Shown here in pieces: positions 10,657 through 26,117 of a DNA stretch of 39,446 nucleotides. A program made the translations under genes and the position numbers. Each line of letters opens with the position of its first letter. The first letter of the stretch is position 1. Where the stretch lies: the NCBI GenBank assembly GCA_902586695.1, contig CACIIL010000010.1, forward strand, positions 1 to 39,446. The letters are read 5' to 3'. The notes beneath the pieces are model-generated. The model had not been told where the DNA came from and did not search any database. It saw only the letters and a list, made by a program, of their open reading frames with translations. This DNA is from an uncultured Alphaproteobacteria bacterium (GTDB taxonomy: Bacteria; Pseudomonadota; Alphaproteobacteria; HIMB59; GCA-002718135).

Positions 10657-11151
10657 ATGATTAAAATAATTACAATAATAACAATCTTTTTTTTATATTC
10701 CTGTTCCAATACTTCGCCAACGACAGTAAAAACTTCAGATACTCAGAAAGTTCTAGCTATAGAATACGGTGTAATTAAATCATCCTCTCCTGTTAAAATA
10801 AAAGGTGAATCTAACTGGATAGGTGCAACTGCAGGAGGAATGATTGGTGGTTTGTTGGGAACTCAAGTTTGTGGTGAAGAAGAAATTATAGGAACAAAAT
10901 GCCAAGATATAGCTGTTATTTTTGGAACATTAGGTGGTGTGGCAGCAGGAACTGTTATTCAAGCAACCCTTGGTAATCATAATGGTTTTCAATATATTAT
11001 AAATATTGATGAGTGTAGTGAAAGTATTAGTTCATGCCAAACTAATCAAGATAAAGCATTTGTTCAGGGTGACAAAGAATCTATTACCATAGGTCAAAGA
11101 GTGGTAATAATTTATGGAAATAACATAAGAGTAATTCCTTATGAAGGTTAA
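10657..11151 (+). CDS. SlyB/Pcp-like outer-membrane lipoprotein with glycine-zipper segment
   Basis: The 164-residue product has a lipoprotein signal peptide with the lipobox LYSC (Cys16). The mature part resembles SlyB/Pcp17: ..VLAIEYGVIKSSSPVKI.., then a Gly-zipper hydrophobic stretch (GATAGGMIGGLLG and later FGTLGGVAAGTVIQATLG) interrupted by a Cys-containing loop (QVCGEEEIIGTKCQD), and a C-terminal beta part ending GQRVVIIYGNNIRVIPYE. SlyB proteins sit in the outer membrane and stabilise it under stress. The two loop cysteines are an addition relative to the SlyB I remember and could form a disulfide. It overlaps the next gene by 11 nt. Confidence 0.75.
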   Translation: MIKIITIITIFFLYSCSNTSPTTVKTSDTQKVLAIEYGVIKSSSPVKIKGESNWIGATAGGMIGGLLGTQVCGEEEIIGTKCQDIAVIFGTLGGVAAGTVIQATLGNHNGFQYIINIDECSESISSCQTNQDKAFVQGDKESITIGQRVVIIYGNNIRVIPYEG

Positions 11152-11995
11152 TATATTTATTTTTTTTTTAATTTTTTTCTTTTTTAATCCTTTAAAAGCA
11201 GAATTAATTTTTGAAAATGAATTTCCCAATAATATTCAAGGAATTTGGAGTCCAGATTGTGAATCGGAACTTCAAGTACATATTATTGGTAAAAATAGTA
11301 GTCTTTGGATTGATGAAGATTATGTGGGTTTGAATATGTCTAAAACTTCTGAAGTTCAGGGTTGGACTGCATACAAATGGGGTGAATTAGATGGTTCTTA
11401 TTATTATTTTTTAAAAAAAAATACTCAAAATCAATTAATGGAACTATCTCCTCCTGATGAATGGGATGGAATAGACTACTCTTTTCTGAATTCTAATGAT
11501 TTTAGTGTTTATGAAGAATGTAAATTTGTTCCAAGTATATATCAAATTATTTATGGTGAAATTGTTAGTTTGATGAATTCAAATCTTATTGAAACTTGCA
11601 CCAATGATTCAAAGCAACAAGAATGTATAAATGAAACATTTGATTTTTTAGATGTATCATCAGATGAAGAATTATCCATTGCGGAACTTACACGAGCTGC
11701 AAGAATTTTAATTTATTTTACATTTATAGATAAAAGAGTTGGAGAGGACAGAGATATAGGGTTTGTAACTTACACAACTACTTCATTATTTTTTCCTGCA
11801 ATTTCTAAAATATTAATTGGTAATTATGATTATGATAACTCAAATACATTATCTTTGAAAGAAATATACACTGACAGAGTAGCAACACTTGATTATCAAA
11901 ATTTATTTAAAGATAATATTAAAGGTTTAGATCCAAGCGAATTAAAAAGATTAATTGAAAATCTTGATTTTTTAAAGTCTATTTTAATAAATTAA
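11141..11995 (+). CDS. Secreted protein with EF-hand-like calcium-binding loops
   Basis: The 284-residue product has a strongly hydrophobic signal peptide (MKVNIFIFFLIFFFF..) ending near residue 20 (PLKAE). The middle contains GIWSPDC and a compact beta-rich region. The C-terminal half has two acidic segments like EF-hand loops: DVSSDEELSIAEL (about residues 171-183) and DYDNSNTLSLKEIY (about 230-243), each Asp-rich with a Glu near position 12. This suggests periplasmic or envelope calcium binding. The start overlaps the SlyB-like gene by 11 nt, so the pair likely works together. Its stop region overlaps the convergent enolase-superfamily gene by 17 nt. No full-length family is recognised. 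Confidence 0.6.
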   Translation: MKVNIFIFFLIFFFFNPLKAELIFENEFPNNIQGIWSPDCESELQVHIIGKNSSLWIDEDYVGLNMSKTSEVQGWTAYKWGELDGSYYYFLKKNTQNQLMELSPPDEWDGIDYSFLNSNDFSVYEECKFVPSIYQIIYGEIVSLMNSNLIETCTNDSKQQECINETFDFLDVSSDEELSIAELTRAARILIYFTFIDKRVGEDRDIGFVTYTTTSLFFPAISKILIGNYDYDNSNTLSLKEIYTDRVATLDYQNLFKDNIKGLDPSELKRLIENLDFLKSILIN

Positions 11996-13100
11996 CTAAA
12001 TATTTACCTATTAAATTTTTATTTAAAGTAAATCCAATTCCAGGTAATTGATTAAGATTAAGTATGCCATTAGATATGCTTAATTTTTCTTTAAATAATG
12101 AGTCTCTTAATGGGTTAGGGTTTAAATCAGTTTCTAATAGTCCATTTTTATTAATAGCACTCATTAAATGAGCAGAAGTTATCATACCTACAGCGCTACC
12201 TAAAAAATGTAAATATAATTTATTATTTATATTTGAATTAAAATTTTTAACAATAAAAGACAAACCACCGTATTTAGTAATATCAGGTTGAATAAATTTT
12301 ATTTTTCTATTTTTTAAAAAATTAATAAATTTTTTTTCATTTGAAATATTTTCTCCAAGTGCAATAGAAATTTTACTTGAATTTATCAATTCTAAATAAT
12401 CACGATCTTTTGTTAAAGCAGAAACTGGTTCTTCAATCCAATATATTGGAAATTTTTGTAAAATTTTTAAATATTTTTTTGCATTATTTATATCCCAACC
12501 TTGATTAACATCAAACATAAGGCTTTCATTTTTATTACAAAAAAGAATTACTTTTTTTATTAAATTTAGGTCTAAGTTATTATTAAAACCTATTTTAATT
12601 TTAAATGATTTAATTCCTAATTTCCTAGCCTTTTCTATACTTTTTGTAGCTTCATCTGGATTTATACCACTAGCATATAAACCAATTTTATTTGTAGCTT
12701 TGTCGTTAATTAATTTATTCAAAGGTTTTTTTTTATTTTTTGAAAATAAATCCCATAAAGCGCAATTGAATCCTGCCAATATTGAATCATAAGAACCAAG
12801 ATCATTTGATTGAACAAATATAGACTTTAGATCTAAAAAAATTTTATAAATATCAGAAGGATCATAAATATTAGTATTCTTAATCTTATTTACGAATATA
12901 TTTTTTAATAAATTAAATTTATATAAAGCACCATCACTAGGAAAATTACACCAAATTTCACCTAATCCTATGTTATTATATTTATCTTTTAGCTCTATTA
13001 TTAATGCAGGTCTTTTTTTCATCACTCCAAAAGAGGTATAAACATATTTCTTTAGTTTATATTCAAGATGATAAATTTTGATTTTATTTATTCTAATCAA
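11979..13100 (-). CDS. Enolase-superfamily (mandelate racemase/muconate-lactonizing type) enzyme
   Basis: The 373-residue protein has the superfamily capping domain (residues 1-125) and barrel. Catalytic elements are in order: the KxK base pair in FKIKIGF, metal ligands in LMFDVNQGW (Asp), YWIEEPVS (Glu) and ALGENIS (Glu), then QPDITKYGG and YLHFLGSAVGM, which supply the Asp/His side of the mandelate-racemase subgroup. It could be a sugar-acid dehydratase or racemase; the substrate cannot be read from sequence. It is the last gene of the minus-strand operon. The only in-frame start near the expected N-terminus is a TTG at 13100, overlapping the reductase stop by 8 nt, which suggests low, coupled translation. 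Its position implies a side branch of the same sugar pathway. Confidence 0.82.
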   Translation of the reverse strand: MIRINKIKIYHLEYKLKKYVYTSFGVMKKRPALIIELKDKYNNIGLGEIWCNFPSDGALYKFNLLKNIFVNKIKNTNIYDPSDIYKIFLDLKSIFVQSNDLGSYDSILAGFNCALWDLFSKNKKKPLNKLINDKATNKIGLYASGINPDEATKSIEKARKLGIKSFKIKIGFNNNLDLNLIKKVILFCNKNESLMFDVNQGWDINNAKKYLKILQKFPIYWIEEPVSALTKDRDYLELINSSKISIALGENISNEKKFINFLKNRKIKFIQPDITKYGGLSFIVKNFNSNINNKLYLHFLGSAVGMITSAHLMSAINKNGLLETDLNPNPLRDSLFKEKLSISNGILNLNQLPGIGFTLNKNLIGKYLVNLLK

Positions 13101-13980
13101 GATCGTTAATTTCTTTTATGTAATTAAACATAGAGGTCCAATCTAAATCTTTATAAGAAGTTTTATCTGCATCTTCGTACACTTTTAAAGCAGTTTTTCC
13201 TGTATTTAAGTTAATTCCATCCAATGAACCTTGTTCAAGTGCGAGTTTAAGATCTTTTAATGCTAGGCTATTTTTAAATCCTGGAGAAACATCATTTTTA
13301 AGAACTTTTATTGGATAACTAACATTTAAATGTCCTTTACCTGCTGCTGTAGTTGTAAGTAGATTTATTGCTAAATCTAAATCTATGCCAGATTTTTTAA
13401 CTAATGATAGAGTTTCAGCAGTAACTATATTTGAAACTATTGACATATAATTATTGATAATTTTCATCTTGCTTCCTGAGCCACTTTTACCACAATACAC
13501 AACATCACTACCCATAGTTTCAAGTAATGGCTTTATAATTTCAAACTTATCTTTATCACCTCCCACTAAAATTAATAGAGTTCCATCAATTGCATTACTT
13601 ACTAATCGAGCTACTGGAGCATCATACATAAGAATATTATGCTTTTTAAATTCTTTGTTTATATCAATAGAATCAGTAGGTAAAATTGTACTCATATCAA
13701 TATAAATATAATCTTTCATATCCTGTTTTAACAAACCATTATCACTTAAACATACTTCTTTAACATTATTTCCATTTGGTAACATTGTGATTATGTAATC
13801 TCTATCATTTAAAAGATCTTTTAATGAAGTGCAATGAATGGCTCCTAAGTCTGTTAATTTAGTTATATTATCATCTTGAACATATGGATCATAAAAATTT
13901 AAATCATTACCTTTAGAAATTATGTTTGTTGCCATGGGACATCCCATTGTTCCAACTCCAATAAAACCAACTTTACTCAT
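13093..13980 (-). CDS. YihU-like 3-sulfolactaldehyde reductase (beta-hydroxyacid dehydrogenase family)
   Basis: The 295-residue protein starts with the NAD-binding motif GFIGVGTMGCPMA. Along its length it follows E. coli YihU unusually closely as I remember it: IITMLPNG, YIDMSTI, DAPVARLVSNAIDGTLLIL, KIINNYMSI, TTAAGKGH and LALKDLKLALE. The key change from tartronate-semialdehyde and hydroxyisobutyrate reductases is Arg125 in place of the PVSGG glycines, matching YihU Arg123. Lys173 aligns with catalytic Lys171 and Ser180 with Ser178. These residues are linked to sulfonate recognition in YihU. It would reduce sulfolactaldehyde to 2,3-dihydroxypropane-1-sulfonate. An AAGGAG ribosome-binding site (13987-13992) precedes the ATG. 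A broader family with an APVAR-type motif exists, so another acidic aldehyde is possible. Confidence 0.62.
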   Translation of the reverse strand: MSKVGFIGVGTMGCPMATNIISKGNDLNFYDPYVQDDNITKLTDLGAIHCTSLKDLLNDRDYIITMLPNGNNVKEVCLSDNGLLKQDMKDYIYIDMSTILPTDSIDINKEFKKHNILMYDAPVARLVSNAIDGTLLILVGGDKDKFEIIKPLLETMGSDVVYCGKSGSGSKMKIINNYMSIVSNIVTAETLSLVKKSGIDLDLAINLLTTTAAGKGHLNVSYPIKVLKNDVSPGFKNSLALKDLKLALEQGSLDGINLNTGKTALKVYEDADKTSYKDLDWTSMFNYIKEINDLD

Positions 13981-13995: not shown

Positions 13996-14922
13996 TTAAA
14001 TTACAGAAATTAATTTAGTTATTCTATTTTTACCTTCATTTTTAATCCAGTTAATAAACATTTCCTGATCTGAATTTGCAAAAATATCAATTGCATCATA
14101 CCAAATTGCCCTTCCACATAAAAAACCCAAAAAGTTTATACCAGAAGACTTGGCTAAAGACAGTGATTTGTAAAAATTATTAAAATTCATACCGGCACTT
14201 AGAAAAACGAATGGAGTGGAGAAGTCCATAAATGTATCTTTTAATAATTTTTCACAATCTTTAAATGAATACCGATTGTAAGAATCATCGTTATCAAAAC
14301 CTTTTACTTCAAATTCATTAAATGGAAATTCAATTTTAATAATATCTATAGAATATTTTAGTTTAGAAAATTCTTTGTAAAAATAAGATACATGTTGAGG
14401 TTTTCTTTTATAAAATTCTTCAATATTGTAACCTAATGAATCATCAAAATATAAAAGTGGTTCAAATAAAAAAGGTAAGTTGTAATTCTTGCAAATTTCA
14501 CTAACTTTTATAATTAATAATTTCTTTTTTTCATTAATAAATCTGTTTGAGTCTGGATTATAATACATAAAAAACTTTAAAGCTCCGAAATTATTCAAAA
14601 GATGATCAAAATTTTTAGTTGGAAGTTTTGTAATTTTTTCTAGATTTTCTATATTGTAGGCATCATCTTCATATGCTATTATTTTTTGAGTTTCTAAGTT
14701 TTTATAAATAGTATCATTTATATAAGTATCATAATCAAATAAAATAGAAGATACATAATCGGATAAATTACTTATAATATATTTTTTAAAATTAAAATAA
14801 TCTTCAGTTAAAAAATTCTTTTTTTTATTTTTTATTAAATTTTTAAGACTTGTTCCTTGATCTATAGCTAAAGCACAAAACTTATTATTTTTAAGTAAAT
14901 GTTCAATATTCTTATTTTTCAT
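13996..14922 (-). CDS. LacD/YihT-type class I aldolase (candidate sulfofructose or sulfofructose-1-phosphate aldolase)
   Basis: The family includes tagatose-1,6-bisphosphate aldolase and YihT, the sulfofructose-1-phosphate aldolase. Matching regions with YihT are CALAIDQGTSLK (YihT AMLAVDQREAM), SSILFDYD, ALKFFMYYNPD, FLFEPLLY, SIDIIKIEFPF with the Schiff-base lysine (Lys196; YihT Lys193), VFLSAGM and FLGFLCGRAIW. Start at 14922 gives 308 residues, close to YihT's 292. The upstream frame to 14958 is rejected because the 14922 ATG overlaps the DhaK stop as ATGA, a typical coupling signal. It probably splits a ketose (or ketose phosphate) into dihydroxyacetone (phosphate) plus a C3 aldehyde. 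The sequence is divergent and the phosphorylation state of its substrate is open. Confidence 0.72.
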   Translation of the reverse strand: MKNKNIEHLLKNNKFCALAIDQGTSLKNLIKNKKKNFLTEDYFNFKKYIISNLSDYVSSILFDYDTYINDTIYKNLETQKIIAYEDDAYNIENLEKITKLPTKNFDHLLNNFGALKFFMYYNPDSNRFINEKKKLLIIKVSEICKNYNLPFLFEPLLYFDDSLGYNIEEFYKRKPQHVSYFYKEFSKLKYSIDIIKIEFPFNEFEVKGFDNDDSYNRYSFKDCEKLLKDTFMDFSTPFVFLSAGMNFNNFYKSLSLAKSSGINFLGFLCGRAIWYDAIDIFANSDQEMFINWIKNEGKNRITKLISVI

Positions 14923-15917
14923 AAATGAAAATAAGGTGCAGAAGTTTTTTGAGACCAAAGATTTCTCATTTCTTCTGTTGACTTTAAAAGTGAAATAGAA
15001 AAACCCGCACTTTCTTGAGTTGTAATGTACTCATTTACTAAAGGTTTATAGGTTTTGATATTATATTTTGTTAAATATTCTTCTAAATCATTATAAATTA
15101 TTAATAATTCCATTAATGTTGTTGCGCCAGAACCATTTACAAATGGTATTAAAATATCACCATTAGAATATGAAAAGTCATCAAATATTTTATCTAACAT
15201 TGTTGAGACAATTTTTCTTGAATTATCAATTTTTTGTCTACCATAACCAGATTCTCCATGCACTCCCATTCCAATAAAAATTTCATCGTCGGCAATTTCA
15301 AAAATTTTTTTTCCACTAATTGGTGATACTCCTGGACTGATAGCTACAGATAAGGTTCTAGTATTATCTCGTACTATTTCTCCCATCCTTATTAAAGATT
15401 CAAGGTCTCCACTATTTTCAGATAGGGCGCCCAAAATCTTATATATAAAAGTGGTTCCTGCCCCTCCTCTTCTTTCATTTTCTTTACCCTTTGGGGCAGA
15501 GGCAATGTCATCATACATTATTAAAGCTTTAGCATTGATATTTTCATCTTCTGCTAATTCAATAGCCATTTCACCATTCATCACATCACCTGCGTGATTA
15601 GAAATTAATAAAAGAATTCCTGGATGTGATTTAAATAATTTAATTCCTTCAAGAATTAAATCACCGGATGGTGCTGAAAAAATATCACCTACCACATTTG
15701 CATCCAATAACCCTTCACCAATCCAACCTAAAGCAATTGGTTCATGTCCAGAACCATTTCCAATTAAAAGAGGAATTTTACTTACATTTTTTGGATTTTT
15801 TCTAATTATTAATCTTTTATTTGGCTCAAAAAATTTAACTTTGTCATAATGGGCTTTGACATAACCATTTAGCATATCATTAACTATGTTTTCTTTTAAA
15901 TTAATTATTTTTTTCAT
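14919..15917 (-). CDS. dhaK: Dihydroxyacetone kinase subunit DhaK
   Basis: The 332-residue protein matches DhaK through its substrate-binding sites: GNGSGHEPIALGWIG carries the His that hydrogen-bonds substrate (E. coli His56), NHAGDVMN carries the Asp (Asp109), and IGMGVHGESGYGR carries the His that binds dihydroxyacetone covalently (His218). The ERRGGAGTTFIYK segment is also typical. It would bind dihydroxyacetone or a similar short ketose for phosphorylation with DhaL. No DhaM/PTS subunit is present, so an ATP-using two-subunit kinase or a DhaM encoded elsewhere must be assumed. Erythrulose kinases belong to the same family. It overlaps dhaL by 17 nt and the aldolase gene by 4 nt. Confidence 0.88.
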   Translation of the reverse strand: MKKIINLKENIVNDMLNGYVKAHYDKVKFFEPNKRLIIRKNPKNVSKIPLLIGNGSGHEPIALGWIGEGLLDANVVGDIFSAPSGDLILEGIKLFKSHPGILLLISNHAGDVMNGEMAIELAEDENINAKALIMYDDIASAPKGKENERRGGAGTTFIYKILGALSENSGDLESLIRMGEIVRDNTRTLSVAISPGVSPISGKKIFEIADDEIFIGMGVHGESGYGRQKIDNSRKIVSTMLDKIFDDFSYSNGDILIPFVNGSGATTLMELLIIYNDLEEYLTKYNIKTYKPLVNEYITTQESAGFSISLLKSTEEMRNLWSQKTSAPYFHL

Positions 15918-16512
15918 TAAATATTTCTCTAAAAAATTCTTTTAAAATTATTGAGGTGGAAAAGGCTCCAGGATCAATTACACCTACTCCCTTTGTTTCA
16001 AGAAATTTTGCCCTGCCAACTTTTGCTTCCATATTCTTTGTATTTTGAAGTGATTTATCAATTGAAGAAAAAATCTCATCAATTAAAAAATCATCTTTAT
16101 TATTTATCTTATCATGTAAAGGATAATAAATATCTAAAATACTTTTATCCCCAATATTAACTTTTCCTCTTTTTTTAATTTTTTCAATAGTTGATGAAAA
16201 AATATTTAAAACAGATTTTTGAGTATTATTAATATTCAAATTAGCAACTTCTTTAATAAAGATTGTCATTAGAATACCTGATGCTCCACCCATAGATATT
16301 CTCATTAACTTAGAAACTTCGGACATAAAATCGACTACATTATTTATATCAATATTCTCGAAACTATTTACAACTTTGTCAAGACCTCTTAAAATAGTAG
16401 ATCCATGATCACCATCTCCAATTTGTTGGTCTAAATTATCAATTTCGTTGTATTTATCTTTAATTACTAAATATGATCTGTGTAACCAATTTTTATGAAA
16501 ATCAATCATCAT
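15901..16512 (-). CDS. dhaL: Dihydroxyacetone kinase nucleotide-binding subunit DhaL
   Basis: The 203-residue protein is a DhaL-type all-helical domain. The metal/nucleotide aspartates are in LDQQIGDGDHGSTILRG (Asp28, Asp33, Asp35), and SMGGASGILMTIF and DPGAFST are also conserved. It supplies the phosphoryl donor for DhaK. In PTS-type systems ADP stays bound and is rephosphorylated by DhaM, while in ATP-type kinases this domain exchanges ATP; the sequence does not settle which applies. Start: two consecutive ATGs at 16512, the first overlapping the preceding gene's stop (ATGA). Confidence 0.87.
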   Translation of the reverse strand: MMIDFHKNWLHRSYLVIKDKYNEIDNLDQQIGDGDHGSTILRGLDKVVNSFENIDINNVVDFMSEVSKLMRISMGGASGILMTIFIKEVANLNINNTQKSVLNIFSSTIEKIKKRGKVNIGDKSILDIYYPLHDKINNKDDFLIDEIFSSIDKSLQNTKNMEAKVGRAKFLETKGVGVIDPGAFSTSIILKEFFREIFNEKNN

Positions 16513-17348
16513 AAATATTGAATTAAATAAGAATAAGATTTTTTAATCGCCTCATAAGGATCTTTCTCAATATTTCTCCAAGTAAATAAGTCTTTACTAG
16601 TCGGGTTATTAGCCTGAATAAACATCTCTAATGTAATATTATTAGAATAATTTATTTCTTTTAAAGTTTTAAAAATATTTTCAAAATCAATACTACCTGA
16701 ACCAGGAATGCCTCGATCATTTTCAGCAATATGGATATGAAATATCTTTTCATTTGCTTTTCTAATTGAAGAAACAATATTTTTTTCTTCAATATTCATA
16801 TGGTAAAGATCTAATAATAAACCAACTTTAAGGTGATTTACAAGAGAGCAAAGATAAAGACCTTCTTCTACAGTATTAATAAAATCTGTCTCATATCTAT
16901 TTAATGGCTCTATTCCTAATTTAATATTTTTTTCATCTAATAAATTGATAATTTTTTTTATACTATCAGCTGAGTTATGAAATTTTCTTTCTTTATTAAA
17001 ACCGCGATCATTACTAACTCCCCATGCACAATGAATTACTCCTGTTAGTAATTTAGAACCCATTAAAGAGGTAATTTCAATAGCTTCTTTTAATTTATCA
17101 ATACCTTTTAAACGAATTTCTAAATCTTCACTTGTAATATCTTCTTCATTAGACAATCCAGTAGTACAAGTAATCTCAATATTTAAATCTTTAGCATATT
17201 TTCCTATTTCTTTTGCTTTATAAAAATCTTGTCCAAGTAAAGATACTTCAACTGATTTATAACCAGCTTCACTGCATTTTTTAATATATGGCTTTATATC
17301 TTCTGACCATTCTTTAACAAATATAGCTGAGTGGACTCCTAATTTCAT
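16509..17348 (-). CDS. Sugar-phosphate isomerase/epimerase-type TIM barrel (ketose 3-epimerase-like)
   Basis: The 279-residue protein belongs to the xylose-isomerase-like/AP-endonuclease-2 barrel family. Its metal site is like that of D-tagatose/D-psicose 3-epimerases: GIEPLNRYETDFINT (Glu), LLLDLYHMNIEE (Asp, His), HIHIAENDRGIPGSGSIDF (His) and NITLEMF (Glu). It would epimerise or isomerise a ketose or a short ketose phosphate; L-erythrulose-phosphate isomerases belong to the same superfamily. It overlaps both neighbours by ATGA, placing it in the middle of a tightly coupled operon. In this context it may feed an unusual ketose to the aldolase. Confidence 0.8.
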   Translation of the reverse strand: MKLGVHSAIFVKEWSEDIKPYIKKCSEAGYKSVEVSLLGQDFYKAKEIGKYAKDLNIEITCTTGLSNEEDITSEDLEIRLKGIDKLKEAIEITSLMGSKLLTGVIHCAWGVSNDRGFNKERKFHNSADSIKKIINLLDEKNIKLGIEPLNRYETDFINTVEEGLYLCSLVNHLKVGLLLDLYHMNIEEKNIVSSIRKANEKIFHIHIAENDRGIPGSGSIDFENIFKTLKEINYSNNITLEMFIQANNPTSKDLFTWRNIEKDPYEAIKKSYSYLIQYL

Positions 17349-18454
17349 TTTAACAAATCTATTTTTTTAAATAGATCATGAAAAATTTCATCTCTATTAA
17401 CACCATAAGCCTCTCTCATTAAATGAGCATTATCTTGTTTAACCCAATAGAGATTATCATCTAATAAAGAAGATTGAATAATAGTTGATGGAACCCAAGA
17501 AGGATTTATTAACCAAGCGATATTAATAACATCCCATATAACCCATGTTCTCCATGTTTGATCAATAATACCTCTTTGCTTATGAAGAGGATTATTAGTA
17601 TATAAATAATATAAATAATTTCCAATTTCGCCTTTTCCTCTTACAAATTCTTTCATATCAGGAAGAGATAAAGTTAGTTGTGCTCCTACATTAAAGCCAG
17701 GAAGATATACATTTGCAACTCCACATTCAAAAAGTAATTGTGATGCATAAACATCTTGAACTAAATTCAATGAATTTTTATTATGATTAAAACTATATGT
17801 AGGAAATCCAGAAGTCCAAACAACAACCATATTTCTAATAATATCAGGCTTAAGAAGTAATGCAGAAGCTATATTTGTAAGGCAGCCTATTGCTGAAATA
17901 TAAATTTTTTCATTAGGGTATTTAAGACACATATCAATTATAAATTGACTAGATTCACTTTCTATAGGTTTATCAAAACTTTCAAGGTACTTTGGTGAAC
18001 CTCTAAATACTTTTCCATTATAATTCATATCTAGTTTATTAAAAATATTTATAATTTCTTGATAACTTTTTTCTACCCCCTCTTCTGGAGTATCGAAGTA
18101 TATTTCATTTGGATGTTTTCTAGATTCTAATAATCCATTTACCCAATTATAATAATCAGAAACTAATTCTTTGTTTGAATCATCAATAATTTTTTTATTA
18201 GTTATTATATCATATGCTTGTTTTAATTCTTCTTTATGATGTTGAAATGAATAAGGTTCAGCAGTAACTCCTAATAATTCTATTTTTTCTTTAGAAAGTA
18301 ATGCCCATGTTAAAGCAAATTGATCATCAATTTCATTAGCAGTATCAGTATCCAGTATCATTTTGTTTTTTCCAATCGGTAAAGATAAATTATATATAAG
18401 CTCTTGATTACTCAATTTAGGAAATTTGTTGATTATATGTTTAGGTATAGACAT
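17345..18454 (-). CDS. Nucleoside-hydrolase-like protein
   Basis: The 369-residue protein has the inosine/uridine-preferring nucleoside hydrolase fold. The N-terminal calcium cluster appears as ILDTDTANEIDDQFALTWAL (residues 33-52), two residues longer than the classical DTDPGIDDA loop. ISAIGCLTNIASAL, FNVGAQLTLSL and the C-terminal WDVINIAWLI (equivalent to HDPLA..) follow. The family cleaves N-glycosidic bonds of nucleosides, but the longer metal loop and loss of the HD pair at the end put this protein in a divergent subgroup, so another glycoside is plausible. It lies between the E1-beta gene (28 nt upstream) and the epimerase-like gene (4-nt overlap). Confidence 0.75.
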   Translation of the reverse strand: MSIPKHIINKFPKLSNQELIYNLSLPIGKNKMILDTDTANEIDDQFALTWALLSKEKIELLGVTAEPYSFQHHKEELKQAYDIITNKKIIDDSNKELVSDYYNWVNGLLESRKHPNEIYFDTPEEGVEKSYQEIINIFNKLDMNYNGKVFRGSPKYLESFDKPIESESSQFIIDMCLKYPNEKIYISAIGCLTNIASALLLKPDIIRNMVVVWTSGFPTYSFNHNKNSLNLVQDVYASQLLFECGVANVYLPGFNVGAQLTLSLPDMKEFVRGKGEIGNYLYYLYTNNPLHKQRGIIDQTWRTWVIWDVINIAWLINPSWVPSTIIQSSLLDDNLYWVKQDNAHLMREAYGVNRDEIFHDLFKKIDLLK

Positions 18455-18482: not shown

Positions 18483-19490
18483 TTAAAAATTTTTTGCTAC
18501 ATTTATAATTTTTTCTGCAGATGGAATATAATAATCTTCCATTGGAGGACTAAAAGGAACTGGGGTATGAGGTGCTGTTATTTTGGCAACTGGAGACTTT
18601 AAATCAGAAAAGCATTTTTCAGATATTAACGAAGTAATTTCTGAAGCTAAAGAACATTTTGGATTTGATTCATCAACAACTATTACTTTTCCAGTTTTTT
18701 TAACAGATTCGAATATTAACTCTTCATCTAGTGGTGAATAAGTTCTTGGATCAATAATTTCACAATTTATAGAATCTTCAGCTAATTTTTTTGCAGCTTC
18801 TTCAGCAAATAAATTCATTCTCTGAATTGCTATAATAGTTATATCATTTCCTGATTTTCTAATTTTACCTTTACCAAGTGGTATAGGTTTTAAATCATCT
18901 GGAACTTCACATTTAGTCATATACAATCTTTTGTGTTCCATAAAAATTACAGGATCGTCATCTTGAATAGAAGCCAAAAGAAGTCCTTTCGCATCATAAG
19001 CATCATAAGGAGCTACTACTTTTAAACCAGGTATATGTGTGTACAAACTATATAGAGTTTGAGAATGCTCACTACCTGCTCTAAATCCAGCCCCTACAAC
19101 AGTTCGGACTACCATTGGAACTTTTTGCTTACCTCCAAACATATATCTTACTTTAGCAGCTTGATTCATCATTTGATCGAAACAAACTCCTGCAAAGTCA
19201 ACATACATTAATTCTACAATAGGTCTTAGACCAGTCATAGCAGCTCCAACTGCAGCACCAAAAAAACCAGCTTCTGCAATTGTAGTATCTCTTACTCTTT
19301 CAGCTCCAAATTTTGTGAACAATCCTTGTGTAACACCAAATGGTCCTCCCCAAGCATCTTGAGTTCCTTGATATTGCTCTCTTCCTTTACCACCGGCAAT
19401 ATCTTCTCCCATTAAAATTACATTTTTATCATTTTCAAAAGATTGAACTAAAGCATCATTAATTGCTTCTTTAACTGTCTTTATTGGCAT
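18483..19490 (-). CDS. TPP-dependent 2-oxoacid/acetoin dehydrogenase E1 beta subunit
   Basis: The 335-residue protein is an AcoB/PdhB-type beta subunit: MGEDIAGGKG at the start, RVRDTTIAEAGFFGAAVGAAMTG, FDQMMNQAAKVRYMFGG, PYDAYDAKGLL, then a C-terminal transketolase-like domain with IDPRTYSPLDEE and a closing APHTPVPFSPPMEDYY. It pairs with the alpha subunit encoded immediately upstream (stop and ATG abut with no spacer). No E2 or E3 gene lies in the window, so it must borrow them or use another electron acceptor. Why it belongs to this sugar operon is not known. Confidence 0.9.
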   Translation of the reverse strand: MPIKTVKEAINDALVQSFENDKNVILMGEDIAGGKGREQYQGTQDAWGGPFGVTQGLFTKFGAERVRDTTIAEAGFFGAAVGAAMTGLRPIVELMYVDFAGVCFDQMMNQAAKVRYMFGGKQKVPMVVRTVVGAGFRAGSEHSQTLYSLYTHIPGLKVVAPYDAYDAKGLLLASIQDDDPVIFMEHKRLYMTKCEVPDDLKPIPLGKGKIRKSGNDITIIAIQRMNLFAEEAAKKLAEDSINCEIIDPRTYSPLDEELIFESVKKTGKVIVVDESNPKCSLASEITSLISEKCFSDLKSPVAKITAPHTPVPFSPPMEDYYIPSAEKIINVAKNF

Positions 19491-20462
19491 TTAAATATTT
19501 TCCTTTGGGTAACTTACATAAACTTCTTTAAGTGCATCTTCAGGATCTGGCCAAGGTTGAGTCTCAGCATATTTAAAAGCTTCATTAACTTCATTTAATG
19601 CTATGTTTTTTATTTCTTCTAATTTGTCTGCATTTAAACCATGGTTAATCGAATTTTCTATAGCTAATTTTATTGGATCATTATTTTTAGCTTCTTCTAT
19701 TTCTTCTTTAGGTTGATATAATTGTGTATCACCCTCATATTGTCCAGAGAAACGATAATTTTTAAATTCTAAAAAAATTGGGATTTCATTATTTTTTGAT
19801 TCAATAATTGCTTCATTTGTAATTTTGTAAACTTCAAAAACATCATTTCCATTTCCTTGATATGATTTCATATCGTAAGCTTTTGAAATGTCAGATAATT
19901 CTTTGGTGTTTAAATGCCAATCAGTAGCAGTTGCTTCTGCATAGCCATTATTTTCACAAACAAATAACATTGGAATATTCCACAACTGAGCTAAACCTGC
20001 TGCTTCATGAAATGCTCCATTATGGATTGCTCCATCACCAAAAAAGGAAACTGACATTTTTTTTCCATTATTTATTTTTTCTTGCAAAGCTGCACCTAAA
20101 ACAACAGGTGGGCCAGCAGCAACAATTCCAAATGATCCTAACATACCTCTATCAAAGTCACTGATATGCATGCTGCCTCCTCTACCTTTACATATACCAG
20201 TTTTTCTTCCATAAATTTCTGAAGTAATTTTTTTTAAATCACAATCTTTCGCAATAGCATGACCATGATTGCGGTATGTGCTAGAAATCCAATCATCATT
20301 ATTTAAAGCTGCCATTACTCCAACACAAATTGCTTCAGACCCAATGCAAGTATGAAGATAACCAGGTACAGTCTTTTCTTTTGCTATTTTTTTAATACGT
20401 TCTTCAAAAAATCTAATTGTAAATAGTTTCTTATAGATCCAATTAAGTTTTTTTTTATCCAT
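19491..20462 (-). CDS. TPP-dependent 2-oxoacid/acetoin dehydrogenase E1 alpha subunit
   Basis: The 323-residue protein is an AcoA/PdhA-type alpha subunit: FEERIKKIAKEKTVPGYLH, YRNHGHAIAKD, GRGGSMHISDF and the thiamine-diphosphate motif GDGAIHNGAFHEAAGLAQLW..FVCENNGY (Gly-Asp-Gly ... Asn-Asn). It decarboxylates a 2-oxo acid or cleaves acetoin, together with the beta subunit. It is the first gene of the minus-strand operon. A TATAAT hexamer on the minus strand at 20481-20476 lies only about 14 nt before the ATG, suggesting a very short leader. Confidence 0.9.
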   Translation of the reverse strand: MDKKKLNWIYKKLFTIRFFEERIKKIAKEKTVPGYLHTCIGSEAICVGVMAALNNDDWISSTYRNHGHAIAKDCDLKKITSEIYGRKTGICKGRGGSMHISDFDRGMLGSFGIVAAGPPVVLGAALQEKINNGKKMSVSFFGDGAIHNGAFHEAAGLAQLWNIPMLFVCENNGYAEATATDWHLNTKELSDISKAYDMKSYQGNGNDVFEVYKITNEAIIESKNNEIPIFLEFKNYRFSGQYEGDTQLYQPKEEIEEAKNNDPIKLAIENSINHGLNADKLEEIKNIALNEVNEAFKYAETQPWPDPEDALKEVYVSYPKENI

Positions 20463-20602: not shown

Positions 20603-22054
20603 ATGAAGAAAACATTAACAATAGGTTATGCGGCAACTGCAATTAGTCCTTATTATTCTGAAGAACAACAAGTTAGAAAAAAATCTGAAGAACACTTAAA
20701 AATAATATTAAAAAATTTTGATGTAGAATTAATGTCATTTCAAAAAACAATTTTTTCAAAAGAAGATTCAATAGAAGCTGGAAAATTTTTTAAAAATAAA
20801 ATTGATTTTTTACTTTTACAAACAAGTTCCTGCAGTGCAGGAGAGCAACTATATCCATTATGTGATATTGTAAATAAAATGGGTTTATGGGCTGTACCTG
20901 ATAATGAAAAAGAGGGAGATGTTAAATTGCATTCTTTAGTATCAGTTAGTCATTATTTAGGTATTATAAAAAAAATTCTTTATGAAAAAAAAATTAAAAC
21001 TAAATGGTTTTATAATTATGGAAACACAAATGAATTTAAAAATAAATTTCTAATAACAATAAAATCTTTAATTGCCCAAAAAAAACTAAGTCAGTCTAAG
21101 ATAGGCTTTATTGGAGGTATTTCACCAGGATTTGATAATATGATTGTCGATAAAGAAAAAATTAAAAAAAATATTGGTTCAAAAATAGAAGAGGCTACAA
21201 TAAAAGAATTAATTGACAAAGCTAAAAATTTTAATCAAACAAAAATTGATAATGAAATTAAAAAAATTAAAAATGCAGCATCAAAAATTGAAGTTTCTAA
21301 TGAAGATTCATTTAATAGAGTAACAAGAGTATATTTTGCTTTAAAACAAATGAAAGAAGAAAATAATTGGGATGCTTTAGCAGTTCAATGCTGGTCTCAA
21401 TTTCAAGAATTATATGATATTGCTCCATGCATGGCTTATGGATGGATGGGTAGTGAGGACGGTGTAGCAGTTTCTTGTGAAGGAGATGTGCAAGGAGCAC
21501 TTAGTATGCTTTTACTAAATTATATTGAAGGTTCTAAAAAATCTTCTACACTTCTTGATTTAGCAACTTTTGATACTGATGCAAATGCTGTATTAATGTG
21601 GCATTGTGGTGTATCTCCTAGACATTTTGCTAATAAAGATGGAATTAAATGGGTGGATCATAGTACTCTTGGAAGAAAAACTGATAAAAAGTACGGTATA
21701 GCTGGAGATCAAGTATTTAAATCTCAATCCTCAACTACTACATATCTTGGAAATAATGGAGAAAGATTATTAATATTAAATTCAGAAATTTTTAATCATA
21801 CAAACAAAGGTTATGATGGAACTAGAGGATGGTTCAAGGAAACAAAATTAAACAGAAAAAAAATTTCAGCAGAAAACCTAATAAATACTCTAAATATTAT
21901 TGGTCATGAACATCATTATGCTGTAGGTCAAGGAGATCAAAGTAAAGAATTGATAGAATTTGCAGCTTGGAATGATTTAAAGCTTGTAGATGAGATTCCT
22001 TTGGTAGATTATATTTCACCAAAGGATAACGAATCAAATAATTATATTATTTGA
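20603..22054 (+). CDS. COG2407-type aldose-ketose isomerase (L-fucose/L-arabinose isomerase-like; candidate sulfoquinovose isomerase)
   Basis: The 483-residue protein has the L-fucose-isomerase-related fold. The C-terminal half is diagnostic: ALAVQCWSQFQELYDIAPC, SEDGVAVSCEGDVQGALSMLLL (Glu293, Asp294 candidate metal/catalytic residues), a downstream Asp cluster LLDLATFDTDANAVLMWHCG, and the late His triplet GHEHHYAVGQGD (His435/437/438). The family interconverts aldoses and ketoses with Mn or Mg. From memory, members called SqvD/SftI isomerise sulfoquinovose in transketolase- and transaldolase-type sulfoglycolysis. With a YihT-like aldolase and a YihU-like reductase opposite, sulfoquinovose to sulfofructose is the leading guess; L-arabinose or another aldose is the alternative. 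It is the first gene of the plus-strand operon. Confidence 0.72.
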   Translation: MKKTLTIGYAATAISPYYSEEQQVRKKSEEHLKIILKNFDVELMSFQKTIFSKEDSIEAGKFFKNKIDFLLLQTSSCSAGEQLYPLCDIVNKMGLWAVPDNEKEGDVKLHSLVSVSHYLGIIKKILYEKKIKTKWFYNYGNTNEFKNKFLITIKSLIAQKKLSQSKIGFIGGISPGFDNMIVDKEKIKKNIGSKIEEATIKELIDKAKNFNQTKIDNEIKKIKNAASKIEVSNEDSFNRVTRVYFALKQMKEENNWDALAVQCWSQFQELYDIAPCMAYGWMGSEDGVAVSCEGDVQGALSMLLLNYIEGSKKSSTLLDLATFDTDANAVLMWHCGVSPRHFANKDGIKWVDHSTLGRKTDKKYGIAGDQVFKSQSSTTTYLGNNGERLLILNSEIFNHTNKGYDGTRGWFKETKLNRKKISAENLINTLNIIGHEHHYAVGQGDQSKELIEFAAWNDLKLVDEIPLVDYISPKDNESNNYII

Positions 22055-22073: not shown

Positions 22074-23318
22074 ATGAAACTTAAAATTATTACTTTTACT
22101 ATAATCAGTTTACTTTTTTCAAAATTAGTTACTGCAGAAACTGCTCCTGGATTTAGTTCTTGGGATGAAGTTATAAAAGCAGCTGATGGTGGTCAAGTAA
22201 ATGTTTATATGTGGGGTGGTTCAGATGCAATTAATGGATTTGTTGATGATTTTTATGGAGTACCCTTAAAAGAAAAATATAATATTACACTTAATAGAGT
22301 GCCGTTAAAAGGTACTGTTGATGCTGTTAACCAAGTATTAAGTGAAAAAGAAGCTGGTGTAACTGGTGATGGAGGAAGTATAGACTTGATATGGATCAAT
22401 GGTGAAAACTTTTGGACACTCAAACAAGCTAATTTGCTTTATGGTCCTTTTGCTGCTGGTTTACCAAATAGTGAATTTGTTGCATGGGATAACCCTGCAG
22501 TTAATTTAGATTTTGGAAGACCTGTCGATGGAATGGAAAGTCCATGGTCTAGTGCTCAATTTCACTTCATGTATGATTCAGCAAGAAGTAATTATAATGA
22601 CATGCCAAGAAGCTATGCTGAACTTAGTGATTGGATTTCATCAAATCCAGGAAGATTTACTTACATAAGACCAGGTAAAGGTGGTTTTGTAGGTACTCGC
22701 TTTGTTAAACAAATTTTCTTTGAGTTAAGTGGCGGGCAGGAACAATGGGTTGGACCATTTAATCAAGATTTATATGATAAATGGGCACCTAAAGTTTGGG
22801 AACTATTAAACTCATGGGAAAATGATTTATGGAGAGGTGGAGAAACTTATCCAAAAGATAATGCAGAAATGCATAGTCTATTTGCTAATGGTGAAGTTGA
22901 TTTAGACTTTACTCAATCACCAAGAGGTGCAGGTCCAACAAATACAGCTGGAACCACTCCTCCCACTTCAAGAGCTTTTGCATTTTATGAAAATATGATT
23001 GGAGACTTTAATTATTGGGCAATTCCATACAATGCTCCTAATAAGGCTGCTGCTCTAGTATATGCTAATTTAGTTCTAGAACCTGAATTACAAGCTGCAC
23101 AAGTTCAACCTGCTAATGGTTTTTGTTGTGGATGGGGTATTAGCACAGCTAAAGTAACGGATGCAGCTGGTAAAGCCGCAATAGCTGATGCTCAAAATAA
23201 TCTAGGTGATGCCGCAGAAGATCAAAACATTTTAGCGAAAGCACTTGTTTCAGACATTGCTGCAGAATATCAAGATTTAATTGAAGCAGATTGGGAAGCA
23301 AACGTACTTCTTAAATAA
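22074..23318 (+). CDS. Periplasmic solute-binding protein of a YnjBCD-like ABC importer
   Basis: The 414-residue product has a Sec signal peptide (MKLKIITFTIISLLFSKLVTA, cleavage near residue 22). The mature protein starts SWDEVIKAADGGQVNVYMWGG, the YnjB-type pattern. SIDLIWINGENFWTLKQANLL and FCCGWGISTAKVTD are further landmarks. It is a type II periplasmic binding protein of the iron/spermidine/thiamine-like class rather than a classical CUT1 sugar binder. It has the best ribosome-binding site seen here (GGAGGA at 22065-22070) and a GC-rich hairpin just after its stop, both fitting high expression relative to the permeases. The ligand is presumably the glycoside or sugar handled by the island. 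Confidence 0.85.
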   Translation: MKLKIITFTIISLLFSKLVTAETAPGFSSWDEVIKAADGGQVNVYMWGGSDAINGFVDDFYGVPLKEKYNITLNRVPLKGTVDAVNQVLSEKEAGVTGDGGSIDLIWINGENFWTLKQANLLYGPFAAGLPNSEFVAWDNPAVNLDFGRPVDGMESPWSSAQFHFMYDSARSNYNDMPRSYAELSDWISSNPGRFTYIRPGKGGFVGTRFVKQIFFELSGGQEQWVGPFNQDLYDKWAPKVWELLNSWENDLWRGGETYPKDNAEMHSLFANGEVDLDFTQSPRGAGPTNTAGTTPPTSRAFAFYENMIGDFNYWAIPYNAPNKAAALVYANLVLEPELQAAQVQPANGFCCGWGISTAKVTDAAGKAAIADAQNNLGDAAEDQNILAKALVSDIAAEYQDLIEADWEANVLLK

Positions 23319-23326
23319 ATTTTAAT

Positions 23327-24202
23327 ATGGGCGGGGAAAGATTAAAAATTATATTATCTTTAACCCCGCCTCTTTTAATTATAATTACTTTATTTTTTGG
23401 CGGAATATTTTACGGTTTTTTGCAAAGTCTTGGATATCAACCAGCTATAGGAAAATATGATATTAATTTTTCAGCTTATTATAATGTTATGTTTTCTGAG
23501 CGATATTCTAAACTTTTCTGGACTGGTTTAGGGCTTAATCTGTGGGTTAGTTTTGCTAGTACTTTTTTAGCAGCTGTATTTGCACTATTTGGTGCACTTG
23601 CAATAAGAAAAACTTTTTTTGCTAAAACTGTTTGTAACTTTATTTACTCTCTAAATTTACCAATGCCCCACTTAGTTGTAGCAGTTGGCATGATTTTTGT
23701 TTTTTCACAGAGTGGATTATTAGCTCGATTTGCTTCTCAACTAGGTTTAATAAATAGTCCTGGTGATTTTCCTGTTTTAGTAAGAGATAAATATGGTTTT
23801 GGAATAATTTTAGCATACATATGGAAAGAAGCTGCATTTTTCTTTATTATATTAATGTCTGTTCTTCAATCATTAGGAGAAAATTTTGAAGAACTTGCTC
23901 AGAGTTTAGGGGCAAATAGATGGCAAAGATTTCGTTATGTAATTTTACCACTTGTAATGCCTAATTTGTTTTCTGCATCTATAATTGTATTTGCATTTAG
24001 TTTTGGAGCTTACGAAGTTCCTGCATTATTGGGAGTTATTTATCCTCAAATGTTACCAGTTATGGCATTTGAATTTTTTTTAAATCCTGATTTAAATGCA
24101 AGAAGTGAGGGTATGGCATTAAGCATAATAATAGCACTTATAGTTATGATCTTAGTTGTATTTTACTTTTGGTTAACTCAAGCTAAAATTAGGAAAGACT
24201 AA
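23327..24202 (+). CDS. ABC importer permease 1 (YnjC-like, N-terminal half equivalent)
   Basis: The 291-residue product has six membrane helices and the permease EAA loop ENFEELAQSLGANRWQRFRYVILP (about residues 185-207). LQSLGYQPAIGKYDINFSAYY after the first helix is typical of the YnjC-type subfamily. The start at 23327 keeps the conserved first helix (TPPLLIIITLFF), so it is kept even though the first 15 codons lie within a stable stem-loop. Its stop overlaps the second permease's start as TAATG. The pair replaces the single double-length YnjC protein. Confidence 0.85.
   Translation: MGGERLKIILSLTPPLLIIITLFFGGIFYGFLQSLGYQPAIGKYDINFSAYYNVMFSERYSKLFWTGLGLNLWVSFASTFLAAVFALFGALAIRKTFFAKTVCNFIYSLNLPMPHLVVAVGMIFVFSQSGLLARFASQLGLINSPGDFPVLVRDKYGFGIILAYIWKEAAFFFIILMSVLQSLGENFEELAQSLGANRWQRFRYVILPLVMPNLFSASIIVFAFSFGAYEVPALLGVIYPQMLPVMAFEFFLNPDLNARSEGMALSIIIALIVMILVVFYFWLTQAKIRKD
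23329..23376 (+). terminator. GC-rich stem-loop with T-rich tail at the binding-protein/permease junction
   Basis: Left arm GGCGGGGAAAGAT (23330-23342) pairs with right arm ATCTTT (23356-23361) plus CCCCGCC (23364-23370), with an AA bulge. This gives 13 base pairs, seven of them GC-only, around a 13-nt AT loop, followed by TCTTTT. It lies 11 nt after the binding-protein stop. The shape suits a rho-independent attenuator or a 3'-end stabiliser, and it also covers the permease start. It stands out because nearby sequence is overwhelmingly A/T. Confidence 0.65.
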
Positions 24203-25065
24203 TGAATAATAATTTAAAGAAAATTAATGTTTATGCAATTTATTTAGGTGCTTTAATATTGATCTTACCACTTATTGCTTTTTTTATAAATGCATTTTCT
24301 TTTCGTTGGTTCTATCCTCAAATTATACCAAAAGAATTAAGTTTGCAGGCTTGGGTAAGATTAAAACTAATTCCTAAGCCTGGACAAAGATCTATAGAGG
24401 GGTTTTTAGATTTATGGACAAGTAATCCTGCTGTAATTAAAGCTTTAATGAATAGTTTAACTATAGGTATTCTAGTAACTATAGTATCTATTATTATAGC
24501 ATTGCCAGCTGCTAGGGTTTTGGGATTACTTAATTTTCGTTTTAAAAAATTAATTATATTTATAATGGTGTCACCTACTATTTTACCACCTATAGCCTTT
24601 GTTCTTGGTTTAAATATTAATTTTATTTCCCTTGGTTTTTCTGGAAGTTTTTTTGGAGTTTGTTTAGTTCATTTAGTTCCAATAATGCCCTATGTAGTTT
24701 TAACTATGACAGGTATTTTTGCAAACTATAATCCAGATTTTGAACATCAGGCAAGAACTCTTGGTGCAAATAAAACAAGAACTTTTTTTCTTATAACTTT
24801 ACCAGCAATAGCTCCTGGCATGGTAGTTGCAGCGTTATTTGCTTTTCTTGTATCTTGGAGTCAATATTTATTAACTTTTTTAATTGGAGCAGGAAAAGTA
24901 ATGACTTTACCTTTACTTGTATTTTCTACAGCATCTTCAGGTAATCCTGCATTAACTGCTGCAATTTCAATAATATTTATATTTCCAGCAATACTGATAT
25001 TATTTTTTACTTCAAAATTTGTTTCAGGTGAATCAGGTGCAACAAGTGGATTTGGGAAAATATGA
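24202..25065 (+). CDS. ABC importer permease 2
   Basis: The 287-residue product has six membrane helices and an EAA loop (PDFEHQARTLGANKTRTFFLITLP, about residues 176-199). AFLVSWSQYLLTFLIGAGKV in the fifth helix is typical of YnjC/thiamine/Fe-type permeases. It overlaps the upstream permease by 1 nt (TAATG) and the ATPase gene by 4 nt (ATGA), so all three are coupled. It forms the heterodimeric membrane channel with permease 1. Confidence 0.86.
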   Translation: MNNNLKKINVYAIYLGALILILPLIAFFINAFSFRWFYPQIIPKELSLQAWVRLKLIPKPGQRSIEGFLDLWTSNPAVIKALMNSLTIGILVTIVSIIIALPAARVLGLLNFRFKKLIIFIMVSPTILPPIAFVLGLNINFISLGFSGSFFGVCLVHLVPIMPYVVLTMTGIFANYNPDFEHQARTLGANKTRTFFLITLPAIAPGMVVAALFAFLVSWSQYLLTFLIGAGKVMTLPLLVFSTASSGNPALTAAISIIFIFPAILILFFTSKFVSGESGATSGFGKI

Positions 25066-26117
25066 GTGATTTAAAAATTATAAATTTAGTAAAAAATTTC
25101 GTTGGTATGGATAGACCTGCTGTTAACAATGTAAATTTAAAAATAAATAGTGGTGAACTTGTAGCATTTTTAGGACCTTCAGGATGTGGTAAAACTACAA
25201 TTTTAAAGATGATTACTGGATTATTTGCACCTGATAATGGTGATATTGTTCTTGATAATAAATCATTATTACCAATACCAACTGAAAACAGAGGTGTTGT
25301 AATGGTATTTCAAAACTATCTTTTATTCCCATACATGAATGTAAATGAAAATGTTGGATTTGCACTCAAAATGAAAGGAATAGATAAAAATGTTATTGAA
25401 AAAAAAGTAAGAGAGATGTTAGATCTAGTGAAACTTCCTGATATAGGATTCAGAAAACCAAAACAATTATCAGGTGGCCAACAACAAAGAGTTGCTTTAG
25501 CTAGAGCTTTGATAGCTAGTCCTCGATTACTTTTATTAGATGAGCCATTAAGTAATCTTGATGCACATTTAAGAGATGAAATGAGAGATTTAATAGTAAC
25601 AATACAAAAAAAATTAAATGTAACAACTATATTTGTAACTCATGATCAAGAAGAAGCTGTTTTATTAGCTGATAAAATAGCTTTAATTTTTGATGGGGAA
25701 TTACAGAACTATACCTCACCTAAAAATTATTATGAGCAACCAAAAAATATAAAAGCTGCTAAATTTTTTGGTGGAGTTAATTTTATTAAATCTAAAAAAA
25801 TAAATAATGAGTTTATATCAGATATTGGCAAAATAAATTATGTAGGAGAAAATATTAATGATTTAAATGATGAAATTAATATAACTATTAGACCTGAAAA
25901 TATAAAATTATCTAAAACAAATGATTTCGATCATAATTCTTTTAAAGGAAATATTAAATCAATTATTTTTTCAGGCACTCATACAAGATATAAAATTATT
26001 ATTAATAATTTAGAACTAGAATGCTCATTACAATCATTAGGAATTAAGAATATAAATCAAGGTGACGAAATTTTTGTTCATTTACCAAAAGATAAAATAT
26101 GGGGAATGAATGACTAA
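25062..26117 (+). CDS. ABC importer ATPase with C-terminal TOBE-like domain
   Basis: The 351-residue protein has Walker A GPSGCGKTT (38-46), Q-loop MVFQNYLLFPYM, signature LSGGQQQRVALARAL, Walker B LLLLDEPLSNLD and H-loop FVTHDQEEA. The segment after residue 235 is a TOBE-like regulatory domain (ITIRPENIKLSK). The architecture is that of sugar/polyamine/iron importers. It would energise the two permeases. Its last 8 nt overlap the start of the GH51 gene. Confidence 0.9.
   Translation: MSDLKIINLVKNFVGMDRPAVNNVNLKINSGELVAFLGPSGCGKTTILKMITGLFAPDNGDIVLDNKSLLPIPTENRGVVMVFQNYLLFPYMNVNENVGFALKMKGIDKNVIEKKVREMLDLVKLPDIGFRKPKQLSGGQQQRVALARALIASPRLLLLDEPLSNLDAHLRDEMRDLIVTIQKKLNVTTIFVTHDQEEAVLLADKIALIFDGELQNYTSPKNYYEQPKNIKAAKFFGGVNFIKSKKINNEFISDIGKINYVGENINDLNDEINITIRPENIKLSKTNDFDHNSFKGNIKSIIFSGTHTRYKIIINNLELECSLQSLGIKNINQGDEIFVHLPKDKIWGMND

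Follow-up and report, generated by a model that had tools for sequence, protein, structure and literature searches.

The window analysed here, 39,446 nt in length, is contig C10 (CACIIL010000010.1) of the 1.12 Mb assembly GCA_902586695.1 from an uncultured alphaproteobacterium. The assembly is 75% complete and claims of absence are therefore weak for this genome. A minus-strand operon runs from position 20462 to position 11979. It starts with the alpha (19491-20462) and beta (18483-19490) subunits of a TPP-dependent dehydrogenase E1 component, both identified by NCBIfam profile matches, and continues with a nucleoside-hydrolase-family protein (17345-18454; PF01156, 68 bits) and a protein resembling the ketose 3-epimerases of the psicose/tagatose 3-epimerase family (16509-17348; NF051856, 220 bits), whose matches in the PDB are ketose 3-epimerases. 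These are followed by a DhaL-type (Dak2) ATP-binding subunit (15901-16512), barely above the threshold of its profile (TIGR02365, 138.9 bits, cut-off 138.3), a DhaK-type (Dak1) kinase subunit (14919-15917; Dak1, 312 bits; PDB 3ct4 and 1oi2) and a LacD-like class I aldolase of 308 aa (13996-14922; NCBIfam NF009498, 225 bits, cut-off 184). A beta-hydroxyacid dehydrogenase resembling sulfolactaldehyde reductase (13093-13980; NF012005, 270 bits, below the equivalog cut-off of 348) and an MR/MLE enolase-superfamily protein (11979-13100; PF13378, 117 bits) close the operon.

Divergent from the operon, the plus strand encodes an SftI/AraA-like aldose-ketose isomerase (20603-22054), which scores 142 bits against the sulfoquinovose isomerase SftI profile NF048012, far below its cut-off of 700. 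It is followed by an ABC transporter composed of a solute-binding protein, two permeases and an ATPase (22074-26117; Pfam), kept in relatives, and by a GH51/GH39-like glycosidase (26110-28056; PF06964; 246 bits against NF051901, arabinosylfuranosidase ArfA), of which a relative is present in locus L028. Just past the glycosidase gene lies a gene for a voltage-gated-type ion channel (28552-29241; Ion_trans, 157 bits). The genes for E1 alpha and beta adjoin dhaK also in the Trueperaceae loci L027 and L030, and the clusters are devoid of E2 and E3. The preliminary description had remarked that no PfkB/YihV-type kinase exists in the island, and this was borne out: contig C10 has no match to the PfkB family (PF00294), and DhaKL is the only sugar kinase that Pfam scans revealed among the island genes. 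The island dhaK is the sole Dak1 gene in the 75% complete assembly.

The genes for DhaL, DhaK and the aldolase are tightly interlocked. As previously described, dhaL and dhaK overlap by 17 nt and dhaK meets the aldolase gene at an ATGA junction with a 4-nt overlap, both exact on the window sequence; the epimerase/dhaL junction is an ATGA too. The true start of the aldolase is the ATG at 14922, and the TTG at 14958 chosen by the ORF caller falls within dhaK. Overlaps of 17 and 4 nt were also observed in loci L008 and L014, and of 4 and 4 nt in the Rhodobacterales plasmids L035 and L036, and because the same overlaps recur in relatives the junctions are not a product of chance.

Relatives of the locus come mostly from marine single-cell genomes (SAGs) labelled as uncultured Alphaproteobacteria, and the island counts as an accessory trait of an uncultured genus of marine alphaproteobacteria. 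Gene order is the same in the nearest 20 loci, save two where the aldolase is replaced, and the nucleoside-hydrolase-family gene accompanies the DhaKL-aldolase pair in most relative loci. In phylogenetic trees the DhaK sequences form a clade of 14 members (support 100/100) and the linked aldolases one of 13 (98/95), sister to LacD; the two trees are congruent and show the same splits, with members from marine SAGs, Rhizobiales and Rhodobacterales. DhaK proteins about 50% identical to that of the window are found in Bauldia, Tateyamaria, an uncultured genome of the Rhizobiaceae group and Rhodobacterales plasmids, where DhaL and DhaK are directly followed by a LacD-like aldolase. An ABC transporter belongs to these clusters too, as do an epimerase (except in Bauldia, where none was found) and, save in the Rhizobiaceae-group locus, where neither was found, an SftI-like isomerase and a nucleoside-hydrolase-family protein. 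Marinovum algicola DG 898 and Paracoccus seriniphilus are cultured bacteria that carry the pair. A functional pairing of DhaKL and aldolase thus has strong support: from marine alphaproteobacteria to Rhizobiales and Rhodobacterales the genes stay adjacent and coupled in translation, and their trees agree.

The arrangement has variants. In a Paracoccaceae locus (L031) the aldolase is 7 kb distant. In two loci DhaKL is kept and precisely the position after dhaK that the aldolase holds elsewhere is taken by an aldehyde dehydrogenase (10993-12429 in L024, genome G030; about 7130-8565 in L025, genome G127). A LacD-type aldolase was found in neither genome; both are of the same genus, with records labelled as gammaproteobacteria. 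Locus L009 has its aldolase (10960-11923) and enolase (12813-13938) genes each split in two frames, by decay or sequencing error. A further pairing of DhaKL with an aldolase occurs on a Citrobacter freundii plasmid (L053, 3291-5948), which encodes a class II aldolase/adducin protein, DhaK, DhaL and HPr behind a PTS, and its Dak1 kinase has no K104 (E. coli numbering).

The aldolase had been named YihT-like in the preliminary description, a label that the comparisons rule out in favour of LacD. The protein is 30% identical to LacD of an E. coli plasmid and 21% identical to YihT; phmmer searches against the PDB match LacD entries and not YihT; and the AF2 model (pLDDT 88.4) has its best Foldseek matches in LacD, which occupies ranks 1 to 21, with YihT appearing from rank 30. 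Several features of LacD-type class I aldolases are present, namely the Schiff-base Lys196 (in KIE), the catalytic E154 and the C1-phosphate motif formed by L241-S-A-G244 and C269-G-R271. Across ten DhaKL-linked aldolases, which share 28-63% identity with that of the window, D21, K116, E154, K196, S242-A-G244 and G270-R271 are invariant (10/10), and the phosphate motif (LSAG, CGR) is kept in further linked sequences, including the plasmid members. It is as intact in the linked aldolases as in those associated with PfkB kinases, i.e. LacD, YihT, an aldolase on contig C9 of the source genome (see below) and one from Shinella. S242 and R271 correspond to S226 and R253 of YihT and, as we take it, to the C1-phosphate residues S271 and R303 of muscle aldolase. 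The C1-phosphate pocket is therefore intact at the sequence level, which counts against an aldolase acting before the kinase; the C1 half of the enzyme looks ready for phosphate, although the motif could also be kept for reasons of fold. What is absent is the Arg after Asp-Gln, replaced by Gly (Gly23 in the window copy) in every DhaKL-linked aldolase compared, whereas the PfkB-linked LacD, YihT, C9 and Shinella aldolases keep the N-terminal Asp-Gln-Arg. By analogy with muscle aldolase this Arg presumably belongs to the C6-phosphate or aldehyde side, and its loss therefore informs on the aldehyde half and not on C1.

The kinase appears to be a working member of its family. Both Dak1 and Dak2 subunits are encoded, with the covalent His, the Asp base and the Asp metal site; the GDGDHG metal motif of DhaL is intact, and the AF2 model of DhaK (pLDDT 84.9) has the E. 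coli and L. lactis proteins as its best Foldseek matches. The equivalents of H56, D109 and H218 (E. coli numbering), earlier read as a sign of dihydroxyacetone (DHA) binding, are indeed present, but they are shared by every Dak1 kinase compared, including one adjoining a D-threitol dehydrogenase. The triad thus marks a functional Dak kinase without identifying it as a DHA kinase; since control kinases of other pathways have it too, it was discarded as evidence of specificity for DHA. More discriminating are G52, H60, S80, K104 and Y106, which are kept in the DHA-kinase controls, namely E. coli, L. lactis and two Dak1 kinases adjoining glycerol dehydrogenase and DhaM (L051 and L052). In 14/14 members of the island DhaK clade these positions read N, A, A, S and H. 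Three of them, K104, S80 and H60, we take from structural work on E. coli DhaK to contact DHA. K104 and H60 are absent, with the triad kept, also in the kinase linked to D-threitol dehydrogenase (L047) and in those of sugar-ABC clusters (L039, L046, L048 and L050). Judged by these residues, the island DhaK clade looks like one with a substrate other than DHA. Erythrulose was considered and rejected, as the clusters carry no RpiB/TpiA-type isomerases and the residues differ from those of the threitol-linked kinase. To our knowledge, no Dak1 kinase solved or assayed acts on a C5 or C6 ketose, the C4 erythrulose being the largest substrate, a point against phosphorylation of such a ketose by DhaKL. 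PTS Enzyme I was found neither in the source genome nor in four related genomes, and on this ground DhaKL would use ATP directly.

Indications on the substrate come from the reductase. Its best PDB match is YihU (6sm7), with 198 bits, the next match scoring 143, and in the alignment it keeps R123, K171, N174, N175 and S178 of YihU together with the TAAGKGH stretch, so that the sulfonate pocket of sulfolactaldehyde reductases is present in a protein that misses their equivalog cut-off. Since this pocket is kept, sulfolactaldehyde is the likely substrate of the reductase, which suggests that the marine clade uses a sulfo-ketose. The Rhodobacterales clusters have an aldehyde dehydrogenase or an SDR instead of the YihU-like reductase, and some add a thiolase and an AMP-ligase. 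On the plasmids L034, L035 and L036, the epimerase-DhaL-DhaK-aldolase genes are preceded by those for a thiolase, a zinc-ribbon protein, an AMP-ligase and an MFS transporter, which perhaps serve an acyl aglycone. Candidate sugars are sulfohexose, arabinofuranosides (via L-arabinose to L-xylulose) and modified ribosides, and the hydrolases and varying aldehyde-handling genes fit several of these alike.

The absence of a sulfofructose kinase, claimed earlier, holds for the island and not for the genome. A YihV-type PfkB kinase is encoded on contig C9 (13075-13980); along its full length it shares 30% identity with YihV, and its best PDB match is sulfofructose kinase 7ag6. It lies in a cluster (C9, 3701-18431) comprising a GalM-like mutarotase, the alpha and beta subunits of sulfopyruvate decarboxylase (alpha above and beta slightly below the curated cut-off), a D-2-hydroxyacid dehydrogenase, a Gfo/Idh protein, an SftI-like isomerase (303 bits; that of the window scores 142) and an aldolase which keeps Asp-Gln-Arg and has sulfohexulose-1-phosphate aldolase 8tnf as its best PDB match. 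From this gene content the cell possesses, in addition to the DhaKL island, a sulfosugar cluster of the classical kinase-then-aldolase kind, and with its own isomerase and aldolase the C9 pathway is separate, so that the kinase found is linked to that cluster and not to the island. A relative of the C9 kinase is present in 16/18 island carriers, mostly at 51-53% identity. A full C9-type aldolase is present in only four, and in most others the island aldolase is the sole full-length LacD-type enzyme, which makes cross-feeding from the C9-type kinase conceivable. G030 has retained a remnant of a C9-type aldolase, 39 residues long (contig C1, 142016-142132), close to its C9-type kinase, suggesting gene loss. 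Other genes were considered and set aside. A DeoC-family match on C2, next to an aldehyde-dehydrogenase-like gene of 786 aa, was interpreted as deoxyribose-phosphate aldolase and not as a sugar partner; in related genomes, the small class II aldolases apparently neighbour methylthioadenosine- and inositol-type genes and not DhaKL; and the PfkB genes on C2, C17 and C33 resemble, by eye, a ribokinase (frameshifted), an HldE-like fusion and the pseudouridine-kinase type.

Read from gene order, overlaps, clades and residue patterns, the substrate, the order of steps, the use of ATP and the identity of the aldehyde would be as follows. The island would enable the cell to take up and degrade a sugar or glycoside, from which the glycosidase and/or the nucleoside-hydrolase-like enzyme would release the sugar. 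The SftI-like isomerase would convert it into a ketose and the 3-epimerase would alter C3. DhaKL would then phosphorylate O1 of the open-chain ketose with ATP, its C2 carbonyl being held as a hemiaminal on the equivalent of His218, and the LacD-type aldolase would cleave the resulting ketose-1-phosphate, yielding DHAP and an aldehyde. This aldehyde would probably be sulfolactaldehyde in the marine clade, reduced by the YihU-like enzyme, and in Rhodobacterales an aldehyde dehydrogenase or an SDR would take it. DhaKL would accordingly be a Dak-type ketose-1-kinase ahead of a LacD-type aldolase, in place of a PfkB/YihV-type kinase, a proposal to which we give about even confidence. Its extension to the whole clade, as ketose-1-kinases that act on a C5 or C6 ketose, perhaps a sulfo-ketose, have an obligate LacD-type aldolase partner and replace PfkB kinases non-orthologously in an EMP-like route, is offered a shade more tentatively.

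The preliminary description had proposed the reverse order, with the aldolase releasing free DHA and an aldehyde from an unphosphorylated ketose or sulfo-ketose and DhaKL then making DHAP. Tight coupling of dhaK to the aldolase, an island with no other kinase and a conserved catalytic triad would all suit it, and a precedent exists in Faecalicatena, where a DHA kinase is suggested to salvage DHA (PMC11659671). The sequences disfavour it nonetheless: the C1-phosphate motif is invariant, the nearest aldolases all act on phosphorylated ketoses, and the DHA-kinase positions are lost in the whole DhaK clade. Phosphorylation before cleavage is favoured by that same motif, by the loss of those positions and by the congruence of the clades, and is further supported by aldolases of the same family pairing with a PfkB kinase (Shinella L063, the C9 cluster and LacCD) and by Trueperaceae L030, where another DeoC/LacD-family protein, encoded upstream, is the candidate aldolase and reads GRNVW at the same place. 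Prior release of DHA is thus regarded as rather unlikely, though it is the stronger of the competing explanations.

The most telling fact explained by neither order is the aldehyde dehydrogenase in the aldolase slot of G030 and G127. DhaKL retained beside it without an aldolase would agree with a kinase acting on some other small carbonyl, such as a downstream tetrose, triose or hydroxyaldehyde, independently of the DHAP half of the aldolase products, and Dak1 kinases tied to other pathways are common. Coupling of dhaK to the aldolase in most members and the agreement of both trees speak against such independence, which we consider improbable. Still less probable is a supply of ketose-1-phosphate to the island aldolase by the C9 YihV-type kinase, with DhaKL as an accessory for DHA salvage. 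It would account for the many carriers that have a relative of that kinase and no C9-type aldolase, but the C9 cluster is self-contained, Rhodobacterales keep DhaKL and aldolase with no PfkB kinase between them (a KDG-kinase gene is near in L035), and the DHA-kinase signature is absent from DhaK.

Were DhaKL to phosphorylate a ketose, the substrates of the Dak family would include a class other than trioses and erythrulose, and the annotation "dihydroxyacetone kinase" in sugar clusters would be misleading; were the aldolase to act first, the breakdown of sulfosugars or ketoses would have a new order of steps. With either order, the DhaKL island shares its genome with a separate YihV-type cluster. 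A literature search found no published pathway with a "sulfofructose aldolase"; no DhaKL-linked route features in the available portion of a 2026 SQ review, and a marine SQ survey makes no mention of DHA.

Among known systems, the sulfo-EMP pathway of E. coli (YihS-YihV-YihT-YihU) likewise combines an isomerase, a kinase, a class I aldolase of the DeoC/LacD superfamily and a YihU-like reductase with the same pocket residues. The island differs in having a two-subunit Dak-type kinase and no YihV, an aldolase nearer to LacD than to YihT, an additional C3-epimerase, an isomerase that is SftI-like and not YihS-like, and nucleoside-hydrolase-family and GH51-like hydrolases instead of YihQ. With the LacC-LacD tagatose-6-phosphate pathway it shares the aldolase family, fold, Schiff-base Lys and C1-phosphate motif, whereas the kinase there is the PfkB-type LacC, and the C6-phosphate side of the island aldolase differs from LacD because the Arg of Asp-Gln-Arg is lost. 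Compared with DhaKLM, the Dak1/Dak2 subunits, covalent His, Asp base and fold (TM 0.9) are alike, but DhaM and a PTS are lacking and the five positions of the DHA-kinase controls are replaced clade-wide. The erythrulose-type Dak kinases of threitol/erythritol clusters have also lost K104 and H60, kept the triad and become tied to a sugar pathway; they carry G104 and F60, however, form a separate clade and have no aldolase partner. In Faecalicatena a DHA kinase is induced on sulfoquinovose and produced together with sulfosugar cleavage genes, but the suggested source of the DHA is F6P, through a putative F6P aldolase, or glycerol, in a transaldolase/transketolase pathway (PMC11659671). Finally, the C9 cluster of the same genome follows a parallel isomerase-kinase-aldolase logic, and differs from the island in its PfkB kinase, its Asp-Gln-Arg aldolase and its sulfopyruvate decarboxylase genes.
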